Below, in pieces: positions 5,373 to 29,096 of a DNA stretch of 64,000 nt. Numbering within the stretch: the stretch's first letter is position 1; each line of letters begins with the position of its first letter. Source of the DNA: Spirirestis rafaelensis WJT71-NPBG6. GTDB taxonomy: Bacteria > Cyanobacteriota > Cyanobacteriia > Cyanobacteriales > Nostocaceae. The position numbers were made by a program, and so were the translations under genes. Where the stretch lies: positions 1 to 64,000 of the forward strand of contig JAHHID010000002.1 of NCBI GenBank assembly GCA_019359015.1. Reading direction: 5' to 3'. The notes beneath the pieces are model-generated. The model saw nothing but the letters and a program-made list of their open reading frames with translations. It made no database searches and had not been told where the DNA came from.

Positions 5373-6203
5373 TTAGGCACTCGGTTCAACCCGACCGTAA
5401 AACAGACCGCGAATTTTAACTTCTTTAGGTTCCCCAGCGCCTAAATCGGTATCGGATGGCTGTTCGCTCTGGAAGGTACCAGCAATTTCACCAGTAGCAC
5501 TATCTACTTTGGCAACCGAAAGAGAAATTTTACCTTGAAGAACTTCTGCACGCTTAACGTTAGTTCGGGTAAGCTCTTTCTTATCTGCTTGGGCTTGGAG
5601 ACCTACTGCATTATCATAGCCACTGACAACACCGCGACCTTTGGGGTCTAAAAAGGCAGCACCGCGATAAGAAGGAACTTTGAAGTCACCTTCAAAATCG
5701 GTGGAAGTATTAATACTGGTCAAACCAGGTTGTGATTGAGCAACCAAGTTTTTGATGGTGAACAGGAAAGGTACTCGTTCACCGCCAGGAAGTTGTACAG
5801 TGGTAGCTTGGAAGTCCAAACCATCTTTTTCCACAAAAGTCAAGCTTTTATCTGGGTTGACTTTTATATCGCCTTGTACTTGGTCAATAGTGGAAGTGTA
5901 TCTGGTCAACAATTTGCCAGCAATAAATTCCGCTTCTTGGCGTTTATTGGCAGGTTCTTCTTTTACAAAGTAATTAGTCGGTTCCAAGCACAGTTCTTTA
6001 AGCACGTAAGACTGGCTAGGATCAATGGGAATGGAACCACGGCTTGTTTCTGTTAATTGGGGGCATTTGTTAGCCAAGCCAGTGCCTCGAATCTGTTCGT
6101 AAGTAAGTAAATCCTTGCTGCTACTCGAGGGAGCATCACTACAAGCAGTTATTAGCCCCAGGCATAAAGCCAAGAATGCAACAATTAAAGCGCGATACCT
6201 CAT
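5373..6203 (-). CDS. psbO: Photosystem II manganese-stabilising protein PsbO
   Basis: 276 residues from the ATG at 6203; a TTG at 6221 would add six. The signal peptide (MRYRALIVAFLALCLGLITAC) directs the protein to the thylakoid lumen. The mature part opens with the family hallmark LTYEQIRGTGLANKCP, including the first of the two disulfide cysteines; the second is in KELCLEP. The remainder forms the PsbO beta barrel, ending in VKIRGLFYGRVEPS. It stabilises the Mn4CaO5 cluster of the oxygen-evolving complex. The peptide ends in an LITAC motif resembling a lipobox, as I recall for other cyanobacterial PsbO proteins. It is monocistronic, with its own terminator. Confidence 0.96.
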   Translation of the reverse strand: MRYRALIVAFLALCLGLITACSDAPSSSSKDLLTYEQIRGTGLANKCPQLTETSRGSIPIDPSQSYVLKELCLEPTNYFVKEEPANKRQEAEFIAGKLLTRYTSTIDQVQGDIKVNPDKSLTFVEKDGLDFQATTVQLPGGERVPFLFTIKNLVAQSQPGLTSINTSTDFEGDFKVPSYRGAAFLDPKGRGVVSGYDNAVGLQAQADKKELTRTNVKRAEVLQGKISLSVAKVDSATGEIAGTFQSEQPSDTDLGAGEPKEVKIRGLFYGRVEPSA

Positions 6204-6853
6204 GGTCAACCTCAATGTCAAAAATTAATATCTCAGTTGTAAAACTGGGTAGAGTAAAGGAAAAATACGGCTATTCTTCCTTTCCCATCCCAAATTGTGT
6301 GCGGTACAAATCGCACACAGCTACGATGATGCGTTTTTACCCTTTTGTCATTATCAGGCTTCAGGCTGCCATCACTAACAGTTTTTTCGTCATGGCATAG
6401 CATCGATAGCGTAGACAATCATTGGTAGATTGTTACGTATGTGTCGCTATTACATACGGCTGATTGTCTTATAAAGTTAAACTAAGCCAGATCATACGAT
6501 TTTTTTTACTCAAAATCTAAGCAGTTTGATTTAAGGTAATAAAATAGCGATCGCGCTAATAATCTTGTTGCCTAATGTGTTAAGAGAGAACATCCGGGCG
6601 ATCGCCTGTGTTCCTTTTCAACCCTAAAGGTACAGATATGTGATGCCAGAAGAACGCACAGCGCAAGCGCTAGCTAGGACATTTATACTATAAGGGCGAT
6701 TACTACTGCCTTTCGTATACATAAATTTATACTTTTGCCTAACTTAGGTAGTCAACAGCAGAAAGCTATCAGACAAAGGTTTGCTAGTAAACAAATGAAA
6801 ACAAAAAATCTCCGGTAAATTTGAGTAGACCTCATTTACAGATATATGGTGGC
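6204..6853. other. Divergent promoter region of psbO and the 6854 gene
   Basis: About 650 bases without a supported gene. It separates psbO (left) from the small plus-strand gene (right) and so must hold both promoters. Several HIP1 octamers are present (around 6546 and 6598). No clear riboswitch or RNA gene was seen. Confidence 0.5.
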
Positions 6854-7201
6854 ATGAACAACGGCATTAGTGTTGATTCAGACAAGTTGTCTTTTAAATT
6901 GCAAGCGATCGCAACTGCGGTACATGATGCATCTAATATTTGTCAAGGGGATACTATCGCGCTTTTGGCGTTGCTACGGCAGTTAGAACAGTTACACCGA
7001 GAGATCCGAGATGGGGCTTTTCAAGAAAGTTTGCCTGATAACCGTCAGGCACTCTACTCACTGCTGAAAGACATTGAGTCTGAGGGGGGTTGGCCTTATA
7101 TTGAGCGCATGAGGCTGCAAGCCTTAAAAGCAAATATGCAGCAAGAAGTTTATAAAGAAAACGAGGAACTGTTAGAAAGCGATCGCAACGTTGATTGGTG
7201 A
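6854..7201 (+). CDS. Small conserved cyanobacterial-type protein, unknown function
   Basis: 115 residues from the ATG at 6854; a TTG at 6821 would add eleven. The protein is soluble, mostly helical and acidic. It contains leucine-rich helices (DTIALLALLRQLEQLHREIRDG) and a central GGWPYIERMRLQALKANMQQEV segment. It has no cysteine, metal site or membrane segment. The composition and codon use match neighbouring core genes, so it is likely real. I do not recognise a named function. It is convergent with the large STAND gene 60 bases away. Confidence 0.65.
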   Translation: MNNGISVDSDKLSFKLQAIATAVHDASNICQGDTIALLALLRQLEQLHREIRDGAFQESLPDNRQALYSLLKDIESEGGWPYIERMRLQALKANMQQEVYKENEELLESDRNVDW

Positions 7202-7262
7202 AGCGATAATACCTTGGGAGAATTGAAAACTCGCCGTGTGTCCTTCTGGGACAATAGCGGTA

Positions 7263-10200
7263 CTAACGCTCTGGGGTAATATCATCACACATATGGCGAT
7301 CGCGCTGTTCAACATTGTGGTTGTGCTTGAGGTAATCACTCATCCAGCTACAACCACGAAGCAGCAGGTCGTCTAAATCTAAATTCCACAAAATTATCCT
7401 GTTGTCATCACTAGCCGATGCTAGTGTATTACCTTGTGGGCTAAAGCTGACACTTAATACTGGACCAGTATGTCCGTTGAGGGTTTTAATCAATTTGCCC
7501 TCATTACTCCAGAGTTTGACGCTGCTGTCCCAACTAGCAGCAGCTAGAAGTTCACCGTTGGGACTAAAAGTCACAGCGTTAACACTATCGCTGTACCCCT
7601 TTAACAAGGTTTTCAACAACGTGCCATCCCAGCGCCACAGCTTGACTGTGTTGTCCCAACTGGCAGAAGCTAGCAGGCGATCGGTAGGGCTAAAACTCAC
7701 GCCTAAAACCCAACTTTCATGGGGTAAAAAACTTTTTAATAAAGTACCATCGCGGCGCCAAACTTTGACCGTTTGGTCATCACTGGCAGAGGCTATAACC
7801 TGACCATCGGGACTGAAATTAACGCTATTCACCCAACCTTGATGCCCGGTCAAGGTTTTTAGCAAGCTTCCCTCACGATTCCAAAGTTTAATTGTTTTAT
7901 CTTTAGAAGCTGATGCCAATAATTGACCATCCGGGCTGAAGCTGACGCTCATCACACTATTATTATGCCCTTGGAGAGTATGAACTAAAGAGCCGTCGCG
8001 CCGCCAAAGTTTCACAGTTTTGTCATAACTTGCTGATGCGAGTATTTGACCTTTCGGGTCAAAAGTGACACTAGCAACTCTATCAGTATGTCCTAAGAGA
8101 GTTTTATAAAGTCGAGTAACAACGCCTTTGCTAGTAGTTTCTCGTTGCCAGAGTTTCACAGTGCGATCGCGACTGCCTGATGCTAACGTTTTGCCATCGG
8201 CACTCCAAGCAACGCTCAAAACGCGATCCTTATGTCCAGTAAGGATGGGCAGTCTGGGAGGATTTAAGCTCCATATTTTTACGCTTTTGTCATAACTTGC
8301 TGATGCCAAAACTTTGTTATCTGGGCTAAAAGCAACACCGGCGACAGCATCGCTATGTCCCTTCAAGGTTTTGAGTAACGTACCGCGAACATTCCAAAGG
8401 TTGATGGTATTGTCTTCACTTCCTGAGGCTAGCTGTTGACCATTGGAACTGAAGTTGAGGCTCCAAATTGTATTGGTATGCTCCTGTAAGGTTCTGTAGG
8501 GACGAAACTTGAGGACATCTTGAGTACTGTTGCCCTCTCGTTGCCAGAGCATCACTTTTTTGTCTCGACCTGCTGTTGCTAACAGTTGACTGTCGGGGCT
8601 AAAATCGACAACTGTCACACCATTTTGATGTCCTAACAAAGTTGTGACTAAACTACCGTCCCGTCGCCAGATTTTCACTGTTTTGTCATCACTTGCCGAA
8701 GCGATGAACTTACCATCAGGGCTGAAAGTTACCCAATTAACTCCTGCTTTATGTCCTTTCAGCATTTTTACTAACCTTCCGTCGCGTCGCCAAAGTTTGA
8801 TGGTTGAATCTTTACTGCCAGTAGCTAACAACTCGCCATCAGGACTGAAATTAACGCTATAAACCCAATTTCCGTGTTTTTGTAAGGTTTTATATGGCAG
8901 TTCGTAAAATTCGCCATTGGTGGGGTTTCTGTGCCAAAGAAGCACTGTTTTGTCGAGACTGGCGGAAGCCAGAGTTTGACCATCTGGGCTGAAACTAACG
9001 CTAGTAACTGCATCCCTATGACCTTTAAGGGTTTGGACTAAGGTGCCATTTTGACGCCACAGTTTCACTGTTTTGTCGCGGCTACCTGATGCCAGCCACT
9101 GACCATCTGGGCTGAAAGTTATACCCCAGACAATATCAGTATGTCCTTCCAAGCGGTTTACCTCGGTTACTCCATAAACTGCTTGCTGGAGTGCTGTCAC
9201 TACCCGCATCCGAGTATCTGGTTGGATTTTATCTGCCTGTTTGAGTCGCTGCCAAGCCCGCAAACTTTCTAAGAGGGCATCAAACTCTTTATTTGAGGCA
9301 AATAGGGCTTCACTAGTAGCTGTGAGGGCACTAATTTTAAAGTTGCTCTCGCTGCGTTCGGCTCGTAGAGTTTGGAGAACTGCGGCTCTTTTTTGTGAGT
9401 CTGCTTGCCACCATAATGTTGCAATTGTGCCTAGCATGATGAAGAGCGATAAGCCTGCTATGCGTGCTTCTCGCAGCCGACGATGCAAAACTAAATTTAA
9501 TTGCTCTTGAGAGAGTTTTTGGGCTACTTCTGCTCTAGTTTTTTCAAAGCGAACTTTTTCTAGTTCGGCAACCATTCCATAATCGTTTTTTTGGCGAATT
9601 GGTTCAACTAAATAATCGTGAACTAGCTGGAAGCGATCGCCTGATTCTTCCCACATTCGCAATACTAAGCCTGAACCGACCAAAATTTCTAAAATCAATT
9701 CCAGACTGGAGACACAAAGATGCGTAATTTCTTCTTTTTTATTGTCTTTATCTTCCTGGTTTTCTTCTATCTCTATAGGAAATTTCTCTTCATCGCATTT
9801 TAGGGAAAAGTCGTTGTCTCCTATTACCAAAGCAGTGACTAAATCAGCTTTTGTTTTTAATGGTCTTGTGCCTTTTTCATCAGTTAACTCAAACAATAAT
9901 TTCCAACTAAGTTGTTCGTTTTCTTGACCACAATCTTTAATTACTTCCTCAAGCCATCGCTGGACTAGTTTTTTCGATCCGCCACAAAGCTTGTATTGTT
10001 TCAGTGTGGTAATGTTTTCTGCTTGAAGTTGAGCGCCGACTATTTGTAATTCTATTGGATGTACTTCGCCCAACTCTCCTGCTAAATCTTCGACTAGTTG
10101 ATGAATTAATTCATCAGTCAGTTCATAATGTGAATGTTGAGTTAAACTCTGGATAATGCTAATTGCATCTTGGCTAGAAAAATTTCCTAAGTAGTAACGA

Positions 10201-12467
10201 ATATTTTTATCGAGAATATTTTTATTAATTATTCCTAAATCGTATAAATTTGTTTGTTTGTTTTCTTGACTCAAGCGTTCAAATTCTAATAAATAATGTA
10301 GATAATCTTCTCGTAAAGAAATTATTATTTTTACAAATGAAATATTTAAGCAATTGCTAAAAAAATGATAAAATTCTTTTATTTGTGTTGGATGTCTATT
10401 CAAAAAAAACAATTCTTCAAATTGGTCTAATATAATAACTATTATGTAATTTCTGTCGGCTAATAAACGAATTTTTTCTAGCAGTGTCCTAGAAGAAAAT
10501 TCTCCAGTAATGGATATTTCTGTTTGTGCAAATGCATTATTAATACTACGTCCTAAAGCTGTAACCCAATCAGTATAAACAGATAAAATAATCGGCAAAG
10601 GTATGCGTTCCCCAATTACTTTATCTTTCAAAACTGGTACTAAACCAGCTTTGAGAATTGAACTTTTACCAACGCCTGAGGGTCCATGAATTACTGTAAG
10701 TTTGCAGTCAGCACGGGCAATTCTTTCAATCAAGCGATTGATATCTTGCTGCCTTCCAGAAGCGGCTATTTCTTGAGCAAGTCCCTCAGGAATAAACGGT
10801 CTTTTTTGCGGCTCCAAAACTGGATTAATTCTGTAGCGTTGTGACTGCAATTGACTAGGACCGATAAAAGCGCGAAAGCCGTACTGATGCTCTATTTGAA
10901 TTTTTTCTTGCTTGAGGCTAAAAGCTTCGGTGTAATCATGGCGTCCAAAAAAGTAGAGCGATCGCAGCTGCTCTAAAATCTGCAAGTATAGCGATGGCTC
11001 GTACTGTACTTCACAAACTACTCTCGCCCATTCCAGATTATTAATGGCTTCCTCCCACTCACCCAAATGTCGCTGAGTGCGTGCCAGCAATAAAAGATAC
11101 CAACTTTCCTGCTGTCGGGAAACGTCGGCGGCATTTTCGGAAATAGAAAGTGCTGTATTTGCTAATTCATAAGCTAGTAACCAATTAGACTCAGAAGCCG
11201 CCACATCTGCTAAAAAACCATAATCTTGAGCCACTTGTGCGGGAGTACCATAAGTTTCATGCAGTCGCAGAGACTTTTGAGCTAATTCCTGTAATTCTTC
11301 CCAGGCTTGTAGACGTTGCAGCATATCAAGCGCAGGCAAAATAAACTTGGCAACTAAGTCTTTTCTTTGCGCTGTTTCCAATACCTCGAGACATTGCTTA
11401 AACCACAATAAAGCGTCTTGCCAGTAGGTTTTGCCCAGAGTTGGGTGTAAGTCTGCCATTCGGCGATAACACAGCCCTAGGTGGAATAGTACTACCGCCT
11501 GTCGAAGTTCGGGAGATGGGGGGCTTTGGGGTCCCCACGAAGTGGAGATGGGGGGAGATGAGGAACTAATAGTAGTCTCTTCCTTGTCCACGCCAGTCGC
11601 TATAACGTTCGTGACGTCCGCAACGAGAAAGGGGCTCCCCTTGTCTCCAAGGAGTCCCCCTGCCCTGTTATCGCCTTGTCTAGTTGTTTGTTTCCAAAGT
11701 GCTAAACTTTTTTGATAATGAATTAAAGCATCATCTATTTGGTCGTCGGCATATTCGTCGCGCCCCAGCACGAATTCTAAACTCGCTTCTAATTCTGGTT
11801 CTAAAGTAAGGCTATATAGGCGTTGCAAATCATTACGGGCTGACTCAATTTCGCGGCGATGTTGAGATTTGGGAGCTAAATCAAGAGCAGCATTAGATAA
11901 AAAGTTTTCGGCACCAGCTTCTAAAACTTTGGCAAAGATAAATTGTGTTTCTTGCTGCACTAAAGTAATTAAATCGGATGCAGCCATTTCAAATTTAATC
12001 GTGGTTGCCGCCCAGCTTTTAAAATCGGGTGCTAACCGAGAAAGCGATGTTGCTACTTCATCTTGTAGCCACAAAACTAATGGAAAAGGAAGACTGGTAG
12101 CATAGATATCTCGTGCTTGGTTAATGTTAGTGAGTAGGTCTTCAAGCTCAATTACTGATTCTAGACCAGAAATCATCACAGCTGACGGCAATGAATCTGT
12201 GGCAACGGTAGGATTATCTAGAAATAGTTCTGATGCTATTGTCGTGTGTAAGGCAGTAGTTGATGGCTGAAGAAAGATTTCTCGTAAATTGATATCTTTG
12301 GTGAGCGAGCGCAGATGCTCCAACATTGAAGTGCGTAATTGCTCATAATTACACCTAACTAAAATCAGGGCAAATTGATTTTGTGAGAGTGCGATCGCCC
12401 TAATCAGCCTTTGTAGAGAATGCTGATTTTCGCTTTGTTTGCTTGCATTTGTTAATTGCCGTGTCAT
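7263..12467 (-). CDS. Giant STAND NTPase with TPR-like region and 14 WD40 repeats
   Basis: 1734 residues. Residues 1-190 form a domain resembling a P-loop fold without a Walker A motif. About 205-520 is TPR-like helical repeat sequence, interrupted by a low-complexity insert near 264-320. A STAND-type NTPase follows, with Walker A GPSGVGKSS (about 595-603) and Walker B IIVIILDQFEE (about 676-686). A transmembrane helix (IAGLSLFIMLGTIATLWW) lies near 1000. From about 1110 I count 14 WD40 repeats, enough for two seven-bladed propellers. The tail LRGCSWMSDYLKHN is typical of large cyanobacterial WD40 NTPases. Such proteins are thought to sense ligands and oligomerise in signalling or conflict. 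A P-loop ATPase gene lies upstream on the same strand. Confidence 0.85.
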   Translation of the reverse strand: MTRQLTNASKQSENQHSLQRLIRAIALSQNQFALILVRCNYEQLRTSMLEHLRSLTKDINLREIFLQPSTTALHTTIASELFLDNPTVATDSLPSAVMISGLESVIELEDLLTNINQARDIYATSLPFPLVLWLQDEVATSLSRLAPDFKSWAATTIKFEMAASDLITLVQQETQFIFAKVLEAGAENFLSNAALDLAPKSQHRREIESARNDLQRLYSLTLEPELEASLEFVLGRDEYADDQIDDALIHYQKSLALWKQTTRQGDNRAGGLLGDKGSPFLVADVTNVIATGVDKEETTISSSSPPISTSWGPQSPPSPELRQAVVLFHLGLCYRRMADLHPTLGKTYWQDALLWFKQCLEVLETAQRKDLVAKFILPALDMLQRLQAWEELQELAQKSLRLHETYGTPAQVAQDYGFLADVAASESNWLLAYELANTALSISENAADVSRQQESWYLLLLARTQRHLGEWEEAINNLEWARVVCEVQYEPSLYLQILEQLRSLYFFGRHDYTEAFSLKQEKIQIEHQYGFRAFIGPSQLQSQRYRINPVLEPQKRPFIPEGLAQEIAASGRQQDINRLIERIARADCKLTVIHGPSGVGKSSILKAGLVPVLKDKVIGERIPLPIILSVYTDWVTALGRSINNAFAQTEISITGEFSSRTLLEKIRLLADRNYIIVIILDQFEELFFLNRHPTQIKEFYHFFSNCLNISFVKIIISLREDYLHYLLEFERLSQENKQTNLYDLGIINKNILDKNIRYYLGNFSSQDAISIIQSLTQHSHYELTDELIHQLVEDLAGELGEVHPIELQIVGAQLQAENITTLKQYKLCGGSKKLVQRWLEEVIKDCGQENEQLSWKLLFELTDEKGTRPLKTKADLVTALVIGDNDFSLKCDEEKFPIEIEENQEDKDNKKEEITHLCVSSLELILEILVGSGLVLRMWEESGDRFQLVHDYLVEPIRQKNDYGMVAELEKVRFEKTRAEVAQKLSQEQLNLVLHRRLREARIAGLSLFIMLGTIATLWWQADSQKRAAVLQTLRAERSESNFKISALTATSEALFASNKEFDALLESLRAWQRLKQADKIQPDTRMRVVTALQQAVYGVTEVNRLEGHTDIVWGITFSPDGQWLASGSRDKTVKLWRQNGTLVQTLKGHRDAVTSVSFSPDGQTLASASLDKTVLLWHRNPTNGEFYELPYKTLQKHGNWVYSVNFSPDGELLATGSKDSTIKLWRRDGRLVKMLKGHKAGVNWVTFSPDGKFIASASDDKTVKIWRRDGSLVTTLLGHQNGVTVVDFSPDSQLLATAGRDKKVMLWQREGNSTQDVLKFRPYRTLQEHTNTIWSLNFSSNGQQLASGSEDNTINLWNVRGTLLKTLKGHSDAVAGVAFSPDNKVLASASYDKSVKIWSLNPPRLPILTGHKDRVLSVAWSADGKTLASGSRDRTVKLWQRETTSKGVVTRLYKTLLGHTDRVASVTFDPKGQILASASYDKTVKLWRRDGSLVHTLQGHNNSVMSVSFSPDGQLLASASKDKTIKLWNREGSLLKTLTGHQGWVNSVNFSPDGQVIASASDDQTVKVWRRDGTLLKSFLPHESWVLGVSFSPTDRLLASASWDNTVKLWRWDGTLLKTLLKGYSDSVNAVTFSPNGELLAAASWDSSVKLWSNEGKLIKTLNGHTGPVLSVSFSPQGNTLASASDDNRIILWNLDLDDLLLRGCSWMSDYLKHNHNVEQRDRHMCDDITPER
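11500..11690. repeat. Low-complexity repeat insert inside the STAND gene
   Basis: G-rich runs (gggagatgggggg) and a mirrored section (gaaaggggctccccttgtctccaaggag) lie inside the coding frame and encode about 55 Gly/Ser/Pro-rich residues between TPR-like helices. The same type of sequence is found between genes in Nostocales, so this looks like an in-frame repeat insertion that the protein tolerates. Confidence 0.55.
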
Positions 12468-12509
12468 AACTAAAAACTGGGCTATTAAATAAAGAAAAAT
12501 CCCACATCA

Positions 12510-12546
12510 AAAATTCAAGTATGCGCTGGCAGCATACTTGAATTTT
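12510..12546 (-). terminator. Perfect hairpin between the two NTPase genes
   Basis: A 15-bp perfect stem (aaaattcaagtatgc at 12510-12524 with its complement at 12532-12546) closes a 7-base loop. It lies 60 bases after the ATPase stop and 40 bases before the start of the giant gene. It can terminate or attenuate transcription between them, or set the ratio of the two products. Confidence 0.6.
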
Positions 12547-12606
12547 CAAGTTCTCAATTCTGGTATATACAGCCAGCAAAGTGCAAAATGCGTCGTTCAG
12601 AGACGC

Positions 12607-13947
12607 TTATAGTTTTGTCTTATTTTGCTGCCAAGTCACGACTTTTTCTGTTTCTGCTAAGGCGGGACTGATGCCAAACCAGCGTCCGATACGATCGCGA
12701 TATTCAAATACCAACATGCTTCGCAGTAATCTTTGGTAATCAGACTCGCCTTGAACGCTTTGCTGGTGTACTACTTCAAATAACAATTCCCATTCTTGTT
12801 CGTTAATCGCTAACAGCAAATCGTCACGGTAATCTTTAATCACTGCTTCTAAACAGTTTCTAGTAAAAGGTGGGTCTTGCCGTTGCAGGCAACTATAAAG
12901 CAGTCCCAGTAAGTTACGGATGTGACCGCCACTCACCCGGCATAGACGATCTAGTGTTTCTGGCTCGTCGAATAATTCGCCTATTAACGAGGGTCTGGTA
13001 TTCCAAGGAACTTGAGGAAACGCTCTGGCTAATACTAGCTGGCTTAGTAGTGACATACCTGGTTCGTAGTCAATACCATCTCTTTGCCGCACCAATACCA
13101 TTGGCAAGACTTTGGGAGCAATTCCTCCCCCTAGACGATTTTTTAATGTTTCGTACTCGTTGGAGAAAATTAATGGTAGGGGAATTGTGTAAACTAGATG
13201 GCATTTGAGCCGGCGCAGTTGTTCGCCTCGGTCGATGAAGAGATACTCTGGTTGCGATCGGCCGGATGCTAATGTACGCATATCTACTCGATCCAAGTTA
13301 TCGATGATGACAACCAGTCCTTTTTGACCCCTCAGCTTTAGCTGTTCTATGCCTTTTTCTAAGACTTCTTCGTTAATCGCTTGCAAAATACTATTGGTAC
13401 GCGGTTCCAGATATTGCCTCAACTGAGTACGCATCTGAGGGCTATCTTTTGCTTTGGCGCTGATTTTGGCAATACCTAAGGAAAACTCTGCTTCTGCTGA
13501 TAACTGTATGGGTGTTTGTAAAAAATCCCCAATTTCTTTAAACAAATTCGCAAAGTAGCCTGGTTTCAGTTTGATGCCAATCGCTTCTAAACTTACACTG
13601 ACTTGACGGGCTACACTTAGCAAAATGTCGCTAATATCTATATCTGCCATGTCAAGATCTTGACTTGACTCAAAATAAACCACATGAAATCCCGCCAACT
13701 CCAACTCGGCTTTAAGGCGCTGCAATTCTGTTGATTTACCGCAGCCAATATGACCCGTAAATAACTGGCAGGTGGGCTCATCCGGAGAAATACGGACGAT
13801 TGTTCGTTGCAATTCTTCCACAATCTTGCAACCACGTACATCAGAAAAATCTATGTAGTACTGCCGATCCAGGGCATTACTCATATTTAACGTATAGCTT
13901 GGATTACACGCTTTATAAAAAGTTGACAAATTTAGTGCGGTTTTCAT
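12607..13947 (-). CDS. P-loop ATPase paired with the STAND protein
   Basis: 446 residues from the ATG at 13947 (MKTALNLSTFYKACNP), which matches the way I recall this family starting; an ATG at 13980 would add eleven. An N-terminal FYKACNP...YYIDFSDVRG segment precedes Walker A TGHIGCGKST (about residues 64-73). Walker B is VVIIDNLDRV at about 200-210. A C-terminal helical lid ends in ALAETEKVVTWQQNK. The body resembles the KAP/AAA-type ATPases found widely in cyanobacteria. No transmembrane helix is apparent. Its position, strand and close spacing suggest that it works with the giant STAND protein downstream, but that is inference. Confidence 0.75.
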   Translation of the reverse strand: MKTALNLSTFYKACNPSYTLNMSNALDRQYYIDFSDVRGCKIVEELQRTIVRISPDEPTCQLFTGHIGCGKSTELQRLKAELELAGFHVVYFESSQDLDMADIDISDILLSVARQVSVSLEAIGIKLKPGYFANLFKEIGDFLQTPIQLSAEAEFSLGIAKISAKAKDSPQMRTQLRQYLEPRTNSILQAINEEVLEKGIEQLKLRGQKGLVVIIDNLDRVDMRTLASGRSQPEYLFIDRGEQLRRLKCHLVYTIPLPLIFSNEYETLKNRLGGGIAPKVLPMVLVRQRDGIDYEPGMSLLSQLVLARAFPQVPWNTRPSLIGELFDEPETLDRLCRVSGGHIRNLLGLLYSCLQRQDPPFTRNCLEAVIKDYRDDLLLAINEQEWELLFEVVHQQSVQGESDYQRLLRSMLVFEYRDRIGRWFGISPALAETEKVVTWQQNKTKL

Positions 13948-14521
13948 GTAGATGCAATTAACTTGTACGTTTACATACAAATAATCTCTACCTAGACTGT
14001 GCTTGATGATTAACTCACAAGTTTGGTCTTAAGAAGAACAGTGCCGGACGCAAAGACGCGTTTCACCTGCAACTATCCTTCTCTAGTAAAGATTAGTTGT
14101 CGTCCCTGATACATTAAGTCTACCTGTTATTTTTACAGATACTGTTGCCCTTTTAACAATTTGAAGTTAAACAATTCTTCTGTAACTGAGTTAATCTTGC
14201 ACAGAAAGGTACTTATCAGTATAGCTCTTTAGTATTAATTGTTACAAAAAAAATAAGCATGAATTCTCGCAAGATGCCAATAATTTACATAAGGCTTGTA
14301 TACTATAATTTTGCATTATTGTCAATTATACTTAGAGTCTATATTATATAATATATGTCTAAATAAAAATTTGCAATCTTTTCGAGAAAAATTTCCGATA
14401 ACTTTATGTACCAAATGTCACTTTTTCATACAAGTTTGGCAATATTTTTTCTGGTTCATTCTTTGATCGGCATCCAAATTCGCAACAAGCATAATACCTT
14501 CGCCTTGGTCTTCCCTTCTCC

Positions 14522-25275: not shown

Positions 25276-25387
25276 AGGCGTTTATGACCAGTAATATGGT
25301 CCCCCGAATCCTTCTATGTCTATTTTACAACACAGATTTCGCCTCAAACTCTTACTTTTGGGGGATGCGATGGTTTTTAAGGTTTGT

Positions 25388-25726
25388 TCATTGGTTCAGC
25401 AGATTATACAATTTGTTAACAATTTGAGCTTGTGTATCAGGTGACAATGTGCCTAGTTCCCGCTGGATAATTGATTTGCGAAGTGTTATCAAATGATCCA
25501 ACCTGATTGTAGAGGGTTTATGCAAACCACTACTGGCAAAGTCGGGATGGTTAATATCGAGAACAAAGTCAGTGTCCAGCAGATCCGCAGGAATCCGACT
25601 GGTAATCAGAGCCAGAATAATGTGGTGATTCGATCCTATAGGATTAGTTAGACAAACGGCTGGACGCACCTTGGAAGAGGATAAATCATCAAATGGAAAC
25701 TTGACTAAAACAACTTTACCTTTCAT
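25388..25726 (-). CDS. MazF/PemK-family endoribonuclease toxin
   Basis: 112 residues with the hallmark opening of the family (KGKVVLVKFPFDDLSSSKVRPAVCLTN). The arginine and the following strand form the RNase active site, and LVKFPF is the first barrel strand. A threonine/serine strand (LALITSR) and a helix ending in LYNLL complete the fold. Such toxins cut mRNA at short sequences. It overlaps its upstream antitoxin gene by 11 bases, as expected for a type II toxin-antitoxin pair. The pair lies beside the Z1 locus. Confidence 0.85.
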   Translation of the reverse strand: MKGKVVLVKFPFDDLSSSKVRPAVCLTNPIGSNHHIILALITSRIPADLLDTDFVLDINHPDFASSGLHKPSTIRLDHLITLRKSIIQRELGTLSPDTQAQIVNKLYNLLNQ

Positions 25727-25958
25727 TGTTCAGTGGTTTTCCATCTTCTAAAGTATAGATGTCTTCCTCTGGATCATGGAGAAAGGCAAAAACTGGATTA
25801 GTAGCTGCGGCTTTTAGCCATTCATTTTCATCTATATCTTCTGCTTCGGGAAATAGAAGAATTACACGAACGCGACCAGTTTGTTCTACAGGTAATGGTT
25901 GATCTAAATGCAATTCACCTTTTGCGTTAACCGTTCCAGTAATTTCTAACGCTTTCAT
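25716..25958 (-). CDS. Antitoxin partner of the MazF-like toxin
   Basis: 80 residues. The N-terminal half forms a small beta unit (LEITGTVNAKGELHLDQPLPV, RVRVILLFP) like the swapped-hairpin or DUF2281-type antitoxins. The C-terminal half is acidic and disordered (EDIDENEWLKAAATNP, DPEEDIYTLEDGKPL), suited to wrap the toxin. It is first in the operon and overlaps the toxin start, which allows translational coupling and autoregulation. The assignment rests on position and size as much as on sequence. Confidence 0.75.
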   Translation of the reverse strand: MKALEITGTVNAKGELHLDQPLPVEQTGRVRVILLFPEAEDIDENEWLKAAATNPVFAFLHDPEEDIYTLEDGKPLNNER

Positions 25959-26113
25959 AATTTTTACCTGGTTTTATCTAAAGTTTATCGGTGCTAGCTT
26001 ATGGGCGATCGCTTTTAATTTAAGTTGCTGTTGTAAGTGGAGCGAGAAGGCGATCGCTTCTGCTTTGAATAATGCAGCGATCAAGTGCGATCGCTTTCAC
26101 ACTCCCTTGTCTT

Positions 26114-28321
26114 TTAATCCTGCAAGCCCATATCATCTTCGAGTTCTTCAGCAGCTTCTGAGTAATTGAACATGAAGACAAACTTGCTTTTAGGCAGAAT
26201 CAACCTGGGTAGATATAAAGGATTCTGCCAATTCCTTTTCTCCTCGCCTTTCTCATACATCACAACTAAAGTTGGAATATTGGGGTATTTGTTTCTAGGC
26301 TTACTTATCCATTCACTTTGCGCGAAACCTGAACCTTGCCAAGGTCTATCAGTTTTGTTTGATAATTCAAGTCCCTCTCCTTTTTGCCCCCGGCGAATAT
26401 TTAGCATTCCCTTGTAAATGTCTTTTGCCTCCATTGCCTTTAGGACTTCTTTTACTCGTTTATCCTCCCATGAATATCCAGGGCAACGACCACTCGGCAT
26501 ATGCTCTAGAATCTGCAACAAAAAGCTGATCTCAACCTCATAGTATTTGTCGTCACCTTTGTATTCAGAGAGCAGCTTATCTAAAGCTTCTGTGTGTTGC
26601 CTTACTTCCGAAGCTTTCCAAAGCGGATCGCGAGGGAAAATTGATGAGCCGGGTGTGAATGCATTAATTGCTGCTGGGTTTAAGACATTAGAACCGGTTG
26701 GCTTAAGTTTTGCTCCTACCCAAACAGGCGTTATTTTAATATTGCTAGGATCGTCACCAATAGCCTGACGCATTCCCTCATCAGCTTCATGAATTGCCCG
26801 GAAATCTTCTAAAATGTTCTGGGGTAGGAACAGACGAGTAACATCCTTGAGTTCTTGACGATAACCAAACATTCGTGCGTGTTGATGTACTGTATCCATC
26901 ATTTTTTGCTTGGCATCACGTCCGTAGTAAGTTACGATCAAGCCATCAATTGTAACACCCCGCCCAAGTCTGTTACCCCCTATGAGAATGTTTATTCCTG
27001 GGTTATAGTTAGGCTCTTTATCTGGATTATTCGCATTGATAACTTTTGGCGTAACACTGCTTAATTCATGTTTTAATTCTTCAATAAGGTTATCGAGGGG
27101 TGGTAAATTCGGTGTTGTTTTGCTTAATTCTCTATGAGCCTGACTTAGCCATTTAAATGCCTCTTCTCGCTTTGTTGCAGATGATTTTTCTCGAATAGCT
27201 TTATCAAGCTTTACAACAAAGTCACTAATTATTTTTTCTAAGTTGCTATGGTTGTCCTTCTTGTAGCATATGTGAGCCAGAAAAGAATATTTAGCATCTT
27301 CATCTTTTCCTGACTGCATCTTGTAAATTGCACCTAAGAAGAAACAGCATAAAGCTAGTCTTAGACCTTCAGGTATATCGCAGTTATTACCAGGGTTATC
27401 TCCTTCCTGTTTTTTAAGGCGCTCTAGTTCCTCAGCTTTTACCGTGCAACAATATGGGCTATTCTCTTTAAAAAACAAATCTCCCCCCATGTAACTATCA
27501 CCGGGTTTAGGGAGAGCAGCACAGAAAACTGGTTTACAAGGATGATCAAGATTTTGCAACAGCAAGCTTTGAGGAGTTGCGGTAATTTGCAAATAGATGT
27601 GATTGGCAACCTCTTCCCGAATATTACCTATTTTTTTAAAAATTGCACTGTCTGGAGCCGTATCTTTACCCTTTTTTGATTGCTTTGATTCGTTAGTATT
27701 CAGGCTAGCATTATCAGCCTCATCATCAAACATCAGAGTCGCTACACTACTGGCTTTGGCAAACTTGAGAACCTGAAGTAAGTTATCTAGGTGGTGGACA
27801 TTCTTCGTAGATACCAGGACAACACCAGTGTCTTTAATATAGGGAGACAATCTATTTTCAGCAAAATATTTGGGGTCATTTTTCCAATCTTCCCAATTAA
27901 AAACACGAGGTCCACCTCTAAGCTGATGATTAAAACGAGCAGCAGTTTGTTTACCAAGCCAAGTATTATCAGAAGTCAACACAATGAAGCAACGAAATTG
28001 ATTAGCCTGAGCAAGTGCCAGTGTCGCAATGGTACTATTAGTCTTGCCGCTTTGGACTTTGCCGTAAATTAGTCCAGTAGTGCCATAAGGTATTTTATCA
28101 TCCTTATTTTTACCCTTATAAAGCTTACTGACAATACCTATACCTTCGGCACCAACATCACCTGATCCAAATGTTTTGGAGTATACATCAACGCAATTTT
28201 GGACGATTTCAATCGCAGTTTGTTTTAATTGCTCTGCTGCTTTATCGTCAATTTTGCTTTTAACTCTCTCAATAAACTTGTTAATACAATATCCATCAGT
28301 TTTAATAGGAATTTGACTCAT
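26114..28321 (-). CDS. Z1-domain superfamily II helicase-like protein
   Basis: 735 residues with the full set of Z1-domain helicase motifs. Walker A is GKVQSGKT (87-94) and Walker B/motif II is MFDDEAD (197-203). Motif III is QITATPQ (245-251). A motif V-like GGNRLGRGVTIDG lies at 448-460, and motif VI is QHARMFGYR (480-488). Z1 proteins are known from restriction-like defence loci, usually with a MORC ATPase, a PD-(D/E)xK nuclease and a methyltransferase. None of those genes is present here. The only close partner is the upstream gene at 28302, which overlaps this start by 20 bases. A two-gene defence unit is therefore possible. The activity, DNA translocation or remodelling, is inferred from motifs. 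Confidence 0.85.
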   Translation of the reverse strand: MSQIPIKTDGYCINKFIERVKSKIDDKAAEQLKQTAIEIVQNCVDVYSKTFGSGDVGAEGIGIVSKLYKGKNKDDKIPYGTTGLIYGKVQSGKTNSTIATLALAQANQFRCFIVLTSDNTWLGKQTAARFNHQLRGGPRVFNWEDWKNDPKYFAENRLSPYIKDTGVVLVSTKNVHHLDNLLQVLKFAKASSVATLMFDDEADNASLNTNESKQSKKGKDTAPDSAIFKKIGNIREEVANHIYLQITATPQSLLLQNLDHPCKPVFCAALPKPGDSYMGGDLFFKENSPYCCTVKAEELERLKKQEGDNPGNNCDIPEGLRLALCCFFLGAIYKMQSGKDEDAKYSFLAHICYKKDNHSNLEKIISDFVVKLDKAIREKSSATKREEAFKWLSQAHRELSKTTPNLPPLDNLIEELKHELSSVTPKVINANNPDKEPNYNPGINILIGGNRLGRGVTIDGLIVTYYGRDAKQKMMDTVHQHARMFGYRQELKDVTRLFLPQNILEDFRAIHEADEGMRQAIGDDPSNIKITPVWVGAKLKPTGSNVLNPAAINAFTPGSSIFPRDPLWKASEVRQHTEALDKLLSEYKGDDKYYEVEISFLLQILEHMPSGRCPGYSWEDKRVKEVLKAMEAKDIYKGMLNIRRGQKGEGLELSNKTDRPWQGSGFAQSEWISKPRNKYPNIPTLVVMYEKGEEKRNWQNPLYLPRLILPKSKFVFMFNYSEAAEELEDDMGLQD

Positions 28322-28793
28322 AGCTGTTGTCTTTATTTGATAAAATTATCCGAGGAAAATCATTTTGAGGTACGGTCTGATCCATCCGTTGTCTACCAGG
28401 ACCACTTATATGATAGCTACCATGTGTTTGCCGAGACACGGATATGTGCTGACCAGCAATACCAGTGTCTGTGTCTAAGACACTCCAAAGCCGCTGTTTA
28501 CCGATGCAGCAGATGCCGTCTTTGTGACAGATGAGGGCTATGAATACTGAAACACTAGGATACCTGCTATTGAGAGTATCTAAGGCTGACTCTTCCTGAC
28601 TGCTTAAGGTGAAAGACCATGCAGATTTTGGTTTTTTGGAAATCTTCAAGAGAATAGCCGATTTAGTGCTATCAGCTTCAATCAGATATACCGATGTATG
28701 TATCCAAGAGGCATGAGTAACTGTAATACTTTTTCCATAGTTAATTAGCCGCAAAAATGCAGCGCCATAAAGGAACTCCTGATCATTGATCAT
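28302..28793 (-). CDS. Unrecognised partner of the Z1 protein
   Basis: 163 residues from an ATG at 28793. Alternating strands and helices are suggested by SITVTHASWIHTSVYLIEAD, then SAILLKISKKPKSAWSFTLS and VSVFIALICHKDGICCI, then an Arg/Gly-rich end (ISVSRQTHGSYHISGPGRQRM). The K-x-x-x-x-x-SAW-x-F pattern and the LICxxDGI strand could belong to a nuclease-like or DNA-recognition fold, but no catalytic triad can be named. It overlaps the Z1 gene by 20 bases and so should be translated together with it. I do not recognise the family, which is why the pair is flagged. Confidence 0.6.
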   Translation of the reverse strand: MINDQEFLYGAAFLRLINYGKSITVTHASWIHTSVYLIEADSTKSAILLKISKKPKSAWSFTLSSQEESALDTLNSRYPSVSVFIALICHKDGICCIGKQRLWSVLDTDTGIAGQHISVSRQTHGSYHISGPGRQRMDQTVPQNDFPRIILSNKDNSYESNSY

Positions 28794-29096
28794 CGTGAAA
28801 TTTGAACAAGGTTTGTGAGTAAATCTGTATCATTAACCATAGGTAAAAAATATTGCACTGTTACTCATGGTAGCGAATATTATAAGTAATTTAGGTGTTG
28901 GGGAACAGATGAATAAGATCAGCGGAGAATCTGGCTTTTACCTGTTGCTGCTGTAATCGTTATATTAAAGGCGATCGCTCACACCACCCGCTAAAGTAAA
29001 CTTATCACTATATTGTCTAATTACCCATGCTAGATAAAGCATTATTTTTAATTTAAGTAATCATAATACTTCAAAAAATAAGTGCAATATTTAATA
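28794..29096. other. Intergenic region between divergent genes
   Basis: About 300 AT-rich bases between the divergently transcribed Z1 partner and the cysteine hydrolase. It must contain both promoters. No repeat or RNA gene was recognised, apart from one HIP1 octamer near 28972. Confidence 0.45.

Follow-up and report, generated by a model that had tools for sequence, protein, structure and literature searches.

Z1 motors, as far as they have been characterised or were inspected here, belong to systems that also include a methyltransferase, together with a nuclease or ATPase that can be recognised as such. In the 64-kb stretch of DNA analysed in this study (the window), a Z1 gene overlaps a small gene of another kind, here called the partner. 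The locus raises the question of whether these two genes constitute a system of their own and what such a system would do. A compact two-gene defence system had been suggested as a possibility from the DNA letters alone (the original prediction). The comparisons reported below indicate that the pair probably is a compact defence against foreign DNA.

The Z1 motor gene and its partner

The coordinates of the two genes and of the features within them are listed in Table 1. The original prediction of a Z1 helicase-like gene with intact motor motifs was confirmed by the Pfam scan (PF10593, E 4e-53) and by an alignment of six homologues; the 20-base overlap with a 163-residue gene follows from the ORF coordinates. 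Z1 also matched the PADLOC model Helicase_II (E 2e-88), which we read as a model of CglI-type motors. The alignment placed the motor motifs at residues 87-94 (G(K/R)VQSGKT), 199-203 (DDEAD), 247-250 (TATP), 448-455 (GGNRLGRG), and 476-483 (DTVHQHAR). All six homologues keep Walker A, Walker B, TATP, and DTVHQHARMFGYR; they vary between K and R at a single Walker A residue and between F and Y at a single residue of DTVHQHARMFGYR. By PF10593 and this alignment, the protein is a DEAD-Z1 motor with intact motifs, as in CglI/NgoAVII-type systems. A record from Neisseria gonorrhoeae, which we take to be N.NgoAVII, matched Z1 in the search of plasmid records (E 2e-42). N.NgoAVII and H.CglI are the nearest characterised motors. 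In Iyer 2008, the third helicase type has the motif DThhQXuRhFG, with which DTVHQHAR and the longer DTVHQHARMFGYR agree. PDB sequence searches with Z1 and with the partner returned nothing significant. An AlphaFold2 model of Z1 was set aside (pLDDT 42).

Table 1. Features of the Z1-partner locus; positions are those of the window
Feature	Position	Strand	Basis
MazF-type toxin	25388-25726		PF02452, E 1.1e-12
Z1 (DEAD-Z1-like SF2) motor gene, 735 aa	26114..28321	(-)	ORF, Pfam, PADLOC, aligned motifs
Exchanged segment D of Z1, C-terminal region, about residues 556-735	26117..26656	(-)	segment identities, variability, trees
Motif-VI-like DTVHQHARMFGYR, Z1 residues 476-488	26858..26896	(-)	alignment, Iyer 2008 motif
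Exchanged segment C of Z1, about residues 279-475	26897..27487	(-)	segment identities, trees
Walker B DDEAD, Z1 residues 199-203	27713..27727	(-)	alignment
Exchanged segment B of Z1, about residues 120-200	27722..27964	(-)	segment identities, trees
Walker A GKVQSGKT, Z1 residues 87-94	28040..28063	(-)	alignment
Overlap of partner end and Z1 start, 20 bases	28302..28321	(-)	ORF coordinates
Partner gene, 163 aa, phrog_28860 family, predicted PD-(D/E)xK-like fold	28302..28793	(-)	ORF, profile match, model, 29-partner alignment, Ka/Ks

The partner had been described as unassignable. This holds for Pfam, NCBIfam, and PADLOC, which gave no family match worth the name, but not for the phage protein family phrog_28860 (function unknown), which was matched by the window's partner (E 1.4e-12) and by all ten partner proteins tested, with E-values of 1.3e-7 and 2.7e-7 for two remote members. 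One remote member, from genome G114, adjoins a very divergent Z1, the two lying on opposite strands. The other is encoded on the Salimicrobium jeotgali plasmid pSJ25, in a type I RM-like locus where it is flanked by two DNA methyltransferase genes. These proteins scored 54.6 and 32.6 bits, respectively, against the profile of 29 cyanobacterial partners (best of 1000 shuffles, 5.5 bits).

No relative of the partner was found in the viral contigs scanned. Searches of phages by tblastn with the partner protein of the window, G114, or L006 gave no match, so that the phage members of phrog_28860 were not recovered; the Salimicrobium protein gave four matches, all at E 4-8. A match to phage BUCT-ZZ01 fitted other PHROGs and was discarded, as were three Lactococcus plasmid records (E 0.2). 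Plasmid searches with the two remote proteins returned just the two cyanobacterial plasmids or the query itself. The charge of the partner proteins is near neutral to basic (pI 6.7-9.6), which was not taken as evidence.

The Ka/Ks values of Z1 were 0.08-0.23 in eight of nine comparisons (L006 saturated), and those of the partner were 0.10-0.21 in seven of nine (L005 and L006 saturated in Ks). These values indicate purifying selection on both genes. The junction between them varies: the 20-base overlap recurs in L002, an 8-base overlap is present in L004 and L053, and gaps of 8-18 bases separate the genes in L003, L005, L006, and L052.

Co-occurrence and genomic context

The Z1 and partner profiles were used to scan 217 genomes of the host family. 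Z1 matched 47 of them at E <= 1e-30, and 27 of these 47 possess a full-length Z1 of the window's subfamily (> 1290 bits; next best 1080). The partner profile matched 36 genomes. Co-occurrence of the two homologues, on which the original prediction depended, was complete among the full-length carriers: the partner was located directly 5' of Z1, on the same strand, in 27 of 27 genomes, 12-20 bases from the Z1 match by coordinates. Two of these pairs are damaged, by an in-frame stop in the partner of G466 and by a split Z1 in G167. Stops were flagged in the Z1 matches of G398, G455, G517, and G518; those of G398 and G455 proved to be uninterrupted, with ORFs of 736 and 724 aa, respectively. The other nine partner matches comprise seven with a broken or partial Z1 (G465, G376, G488, G493, G501, G545, and G385) and fragments in two genomes with no Z1 match (G522 and G556). 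The Z1 matches of 13 family genomes with no partner represent other Z1 subfamilies or fragments, including a truncated Z1 of the window's subfamily in G526.

Across the phylum, Pfam Z1 was detected in 15 of the 386 genomes scanned, nine of which had no detected partner. The partner profile gave 11 matches at E <= 0.01 in the same set. Six are intact and each adjoins Z1, those in G376 and G385 are remnants, and the three weak ones (G240, G333, and G060) had no corresponding protein among the listed ORFs and were taken as chance. Within the family of G114, the partner was found in one of 390 genomes, G114 itself. A relative 50-95% identical to the partner likewise immediately precedes Z1, on its 5' side, in five named cyanobacterial contigs and on two plasmids described below; the named-contig and genome sets overlap (L002/G300, L003/G496, L004/G409, L006/G398, and L052/G395). 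Taken together, these distributions indicate that Z1 and the partner travel between genomes as one unit, and conserved adjacency and the Ka/Ks values of 0.10-0.21 mark the partner as a real gene and not the fragment that the original prediction had allowed for. Many copies of the pair genes are broken.

In a tree of 19 Z1 proteins, which left out L048-L051, the eight pair rows formed one clade (support 100/99). The Z1 of G114 fell outside this clade on a very long branch of unsure placement, so the Z1-partner association either dates far back or has two separate origins.

Neighbourhoods of about 12-24 kb were compared for 27 loci, belonging to 24 genomes of the family, G336, L005, and L053; 23 of these family genomes, besides the window's own, are among the 27 full-length carriers. 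Z1 was recovered in 27 neighbourhoods and the partner in 26; the exception was G074, whose partner is seen in the family scan. No third gene family was present in more than 13 of the 27. One chromosomal site, recognised by eye near genes for glutamine synthetase and an allophycocyanin-like protein, is common to 13 loci, and hflX is nearby in five; the remaining loci are situated elsewhere or on plasmids. Two plasmids carrying the pair, plasmid5 of Calothrix brevissima NIES-22 and p057_D of Nostoc sp. C057, were typed as mobilizable. Integrase genes accompany the pair in some settings, and restriction-type neighbours occur at some loci.

The view of this patch as accessory agrees with its state in three genomes of the same genus that lack the pair (G445, G446, and G447, the last 54% complete), where the hflX-adjacent interval carries ATPase-like and TPR genes instead. 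Homology with these genomes restarts at about window position 28808, just past the partner start. Of the MazF-type pair said to lie beside Z1, the toxin was verified (Table 1), but its 80-aa neighbour had no Pfam match. Conserved adjacency, the lack of a third shared family, and the lack of a linked C5 methyltransferase characterise the unit, by sequence comparison, as one of two genes recurring at several sites.

Methyltransferase and nuclease genes

The profile for C5 methyltransferases was built from ten Z1-linked C5 methyltransferases. It recovered all ten control loci that contain such a gene; five had gone into the model, and the remaining five belong to the window's own genome and had not. 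With this profile, neither the 64-kb window nor any of the 32 pair loci (31 of the window's Z1 subfamily, including five repeats, and that of G114) showed a C5 methyltransferase. The Pfam scan of 15 window proteins, namely the pair and 13 neighbours at 19.5-36 kb, revealed no methyltransferase, GHKL (MORC) ATPase, PD-(D/E)xK, or DUF4420-type family, as the original prediction had stated for MORC ATPase, PD-(D/E)xK nuclease, and methyltransferase genes. A search of the loci for adenine methyltransferases with two type I sequences gave one match, on plasmid L053, which was rejected as a 72-residue piece.

Elsewhere in the genome there are eight C5 methyltransferase matches, which fall into seven frames; the closest lies about 150 kb off on the same contig. 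The PLD-type R protein (PF09565) gave no match in this genome; C. glutamicum and two other control genomes matched. The DUF4420 profile matched neither the genome nor any control.

Other Z1 loci have a different composition. Seven of 25 more distant plasmid records were opened, and in all seven Z1 and a C5 methyltransferase gene are at most a few genes apart; a PLD nuclease, a PD-(D/E)XK protein, Vsr, HNH, or an ATPase is also nearby. Among cyanobacteria, a C5 methyltransferase adjoins a different Z1 in G008 and G251, and the Z1 locus of G243 combines a methyltransferase with a GHKL ATPase and with a DUF4420-like protein (E 0.001, under Pfam's cut-off).

Predicted fold of the partner

The AlphaFold2 model of the partner, built from six sequences, had a pLDDT of 71.8 and a pTM of 0.70, with pLDDT about 55 for the first 20 residues (helix 1) and below 50 for the last 20. 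Its best structural match was the archaeal Holliday junction resolvase Hjc (Foldseek E 8e-4; VIA Z 10.1, rmsd 2.7, 109 residues). Lower matches, at the Z < 8 level that VIA calls common, were RecU, SPARDA chains, splicing endonucleases, and I-Ssp6803I. We take Hjc and the other matched proteins to be of the PD-(D/E)xK class, and the core fold of the partner is accordingly predicted to be PD-(D/E)xK-like. The viral fold library had no match to the model at E <= 0.001. Sequence relation was demonstrable neither to Hjc nor to DUF4420-like proteins, three of which could not be aligned with the partner; the idea of a DUF4420 remnant found no support in this alignment.

The active-site register against Hjc was set from secondary structure, not superposition, using the Hjc active-site residues. 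By this register, K50 is at the Lys of ExK and is present in all 29 partners and both remote members. Y36 and L48 occupy the usual acidic (Asp, Glu) positions and are hydrophobic in 29 of 29, so that the canonical catalytic Asp and (D/E)xK of the superfamily do not appear in this register. The conserved acids that remain are E6 (E or D in 29 of 29) and E67 (29 of 29; N in G114). The canonical acidic site therefore seems to be lost, and the partner may have an unusual one. A search for a nuclease or DNA-binding fold, as originally proposed, thus led to a predicted nuclease-like fold, but one from which the usual acidic residues seem absent. If catalytically dead, the partner would leave the pair without any known nuclease.

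Mosaic structure of Z1

DNA identity between the window and L002 was 95-98% across the partner and residues 1-119 of Z1, fell to 74% at residues 120-158 and to 69-78% at residues 279-475, and was 91-98% from residue 556. L136 and L140 share 97% of partner residues; the values for segments B, C, and D of their Z1 proteins are 72, 65, and 54%. The split Z1 of G167 (L040) was 88-97% identical to L052 over most of the first 515 residues and 56-64% from residue 556; relative to L003 it showed 61-75% over residues 279-435 and 88-91% at the C-terminus. Segment D is the most variable part of Z1 overall, and the segments contrast less with one another when only the 13 loci at the shared site are compared.

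The trees of segments C and D contradict each other over L142, a conflict with 100/100 support. In the C tree this locus clusters with the window, L053, and L136; in the D tree it clusters with L137-L141. Rate variation alone cannot produce such reversed groupings; exchange between lineages can. In the pairs examined, the partner showed no identity jump comparable to those of Z1. These patterns characterise Z1 as a recombination mosaic, in which segments including the C-terminal region were swapped between lineages and the partner was not. Because the exchange affects segments of Z1 and not the partner, it suggests that recognition lies in the motor. Segment exchange could also reflect evasion of phage inhibitors and not recognition.

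Proposed function and alternatives

We tentatively favour the reading that the pair is a single mobile two-component DNA-interference (restriction-like) module. Z1 would be an ATP-driven DNA translocase of the H.CglI/N.NgoAVII kind, and the partner would be the DNA-engaging subunit in place of the CglI R protein. Because the canonical metal site seems absent, the partner would either cut via a non-canonical site or hold DNA while the motor disrupts it. Recognition of the target or trigger would reside mainly in the exchangeable motor segments, above all the C-terminal region. Since no methyltransferase is linked, self would probably be spared because the trigger, as in type IV systems, is not an unmodified site but something characteristic of foreign DNA; a trigger of this kind would be the least complicated means of sparing self. 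It is possible, but doubtful, that the pair goes further and represents a methyltransferase-less restriction-like system with swappable recognition segments in the motor and a constant pseudo-nuclease or unconventional-nuclease partner, an architecture apart from CglI and types I, III, and IV. If this were true, segments would be shuffled between strains much like the target-recognition domains of type I specificity subunits.

Much depends on the partner. Were it an active nuclease with a migrated or unusual site (e.g. K50 with E67 of helix 2 and E6 of helix 1), the pair would be a familiar motor-plus-nuclease restriction enzyme. Shifted acidic residues occur in some restriction enzymes, the three residues are conserved as described above, and the predicted fold matches active nucleases; we nevertheless regard this as unlikely, given Y36 and L48 at the usual Asp/Glu positions of the secondary-structure register and the loss of E67 in the G114 relative. 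The same fold prediction, with Hjc as best match, could also speak for a helicase and a resolvase-like protein serving DNA repair, recombination, or element maintenance for the host or a mobile element, and the plasmid locations and integrase genes would fit such a role. The patchy distribution, frequent decay, and chromosomal exchange sites of the pair, the RM affiliation of the other opened Z1 loci, and the resolvase active-site acids not kept in the partner make this decidedly improbable.

The other two alternatives concern the methyltransferase. A split CglI-like RM system, in which self is protected by a methyltransferase encoded elsewhere, could draw on the C5 methyltransferase matches in other parts of the genome, and a linked enzyme accompanied Z1 in every other plasmid locus opened. 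We consider it quite unlikely, as no C5 methyltransferase was detected in the window or the 32 loci, across varied contexts and plasmids, in which losing the protecting enzyme would do harm. A decaying relic of an RM system, with methyltransferase and nuclease lost, would explain the partial or broken copies in eight genomes (the seven with a broken or partial Z1 and G526), the split Z1 of G167, and the partner stop of G466. Purifying selection on both genes, the intact pairs of most carriers, and the single supported clade of the eight compared pair Z1 rows render this hardly credible.

Comparison with known systems

Two CglI studies (PMC4267653, PMC5737866) describe an R2N2 assembly of R and N proteins, in which the motor is dimerised by its Z1 domains and the DEAD domain touches R; cleavage is preceded by ATP hydrolysis and probably by translocation. 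CglI/NgoAVII systems consist of a C5 methyltransferase, a PLD-B3 R protein, and a DEAD-Z1 N/H protein. Our pair shares the motor class (Z1 domain, SF2 motifs, and Helicase_II) and the combination of a motor with one small companion. It differs in having no linked C5 methyltransferase and no PLD R protein in the genome, and its companion is an unrelated protein of 163 aa.

The MORC/Mza-like sets and the sets of Z1, PD-(D/E)XK, and C5 methyltransferase genes of Miller 2022 likewise place Z1 next to a protein of PD-(D/E)xK fold, a fold that is predicted for the partner described here. The DUF4420-like proteins of Z1 sets retain D...ExK, whereas the companion described here has half their length, lacks D...ExK, and cannot be aligned with them; the pair also has no methyltransferase or GHKL gene among the scanned neighbours. 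Archaeal Hjc resembles the partner in predicted structure, but no sequence relation was demonstrable and, by the register used, its catalytic Asp/Glu positions are non-acidic in the partner. Among the matches listed for open-licence full texts, there was no two-gene Z1 system with such a partner and nothing on exchange of recognition domains in CglI-type systems.

The best reading is that the pair represents a new variant of Z1-motor restriction-like systems with no linked C5 methyltransferase, for which we infer a role in defence. If a two-gene version of this kind is indeed stable, a Z1 motor can be aimed in another way, and the natural segment exchanges make this aiming testable via natural alleles with the same partner. 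The pair also provides a first cellular context for the phage family phrog_28860.

Genomic context of the Z1 gene pair

The interval adjoining hflX in the window is an exchange site, since three same-genus genomes (L124, L125 and L126) carry an ATPase-like gene and a TPR gene beside hflX in place of the Z1 pair. The stretch between the Z1 gene and hflX also contains a MazF-type toxin gene with a short neighbour. At L002, another locus with the pair, their place is occupied by different small genes, which appear toxin-antitoxin-like by eye.

Genes of 111 and 139 aa, XisI- and XisH-like by eye, adjoin the pair at L143, L144 and L145; at L146 and L147, the 111-aa gene of this set does so. The fold matches of the predicted partner model include an Anabaena fdxN-excision factor (2okf, Z 5.1). 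At L003, a gene close to the pair codes for a 932-aa protein in which PLD-like domains occur together with SF2 helicase domains.

Features of the Z1 pair loci and of related records
Feature	Record	Position
Exchange site adjoining hflX	window	25370-28810
MazF-type toxin (PF02452) and short neighbour	window	25388-25958
Small toxin-antitoxin-like genes (by eye)	L002	12251-13463
PLD-like/SF2 helicase protein	L003	13582-16380
Open frame with partner start and Z1 end	G545, C66	303313-303942
phrog_28860 relative and restriction genes	pSJ25 (L054)	6052-14372
Z1-like proteins	MT837793, MT836127, MT835579, MT836482, MT837621	

Damaged and remote relatives

In the host-family genome G545, a single open frame of 222 aa joins the partner start to the Z1 end, as if produced by internal deletion. 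Z1-like proteins (23-29% identity) are encoded in five fecal 'Bacteriophage sp.' records that carry no annotation. On the Salimicrobium jeotgali plasmid pSJ25, two DNA methyltransferase genes flank a relative of the partner, a phrog_28860 family protein, and are followed by HsdS and HsdR genes. This setting suggests that the phrog_28860 family is more widely linked with restriction.
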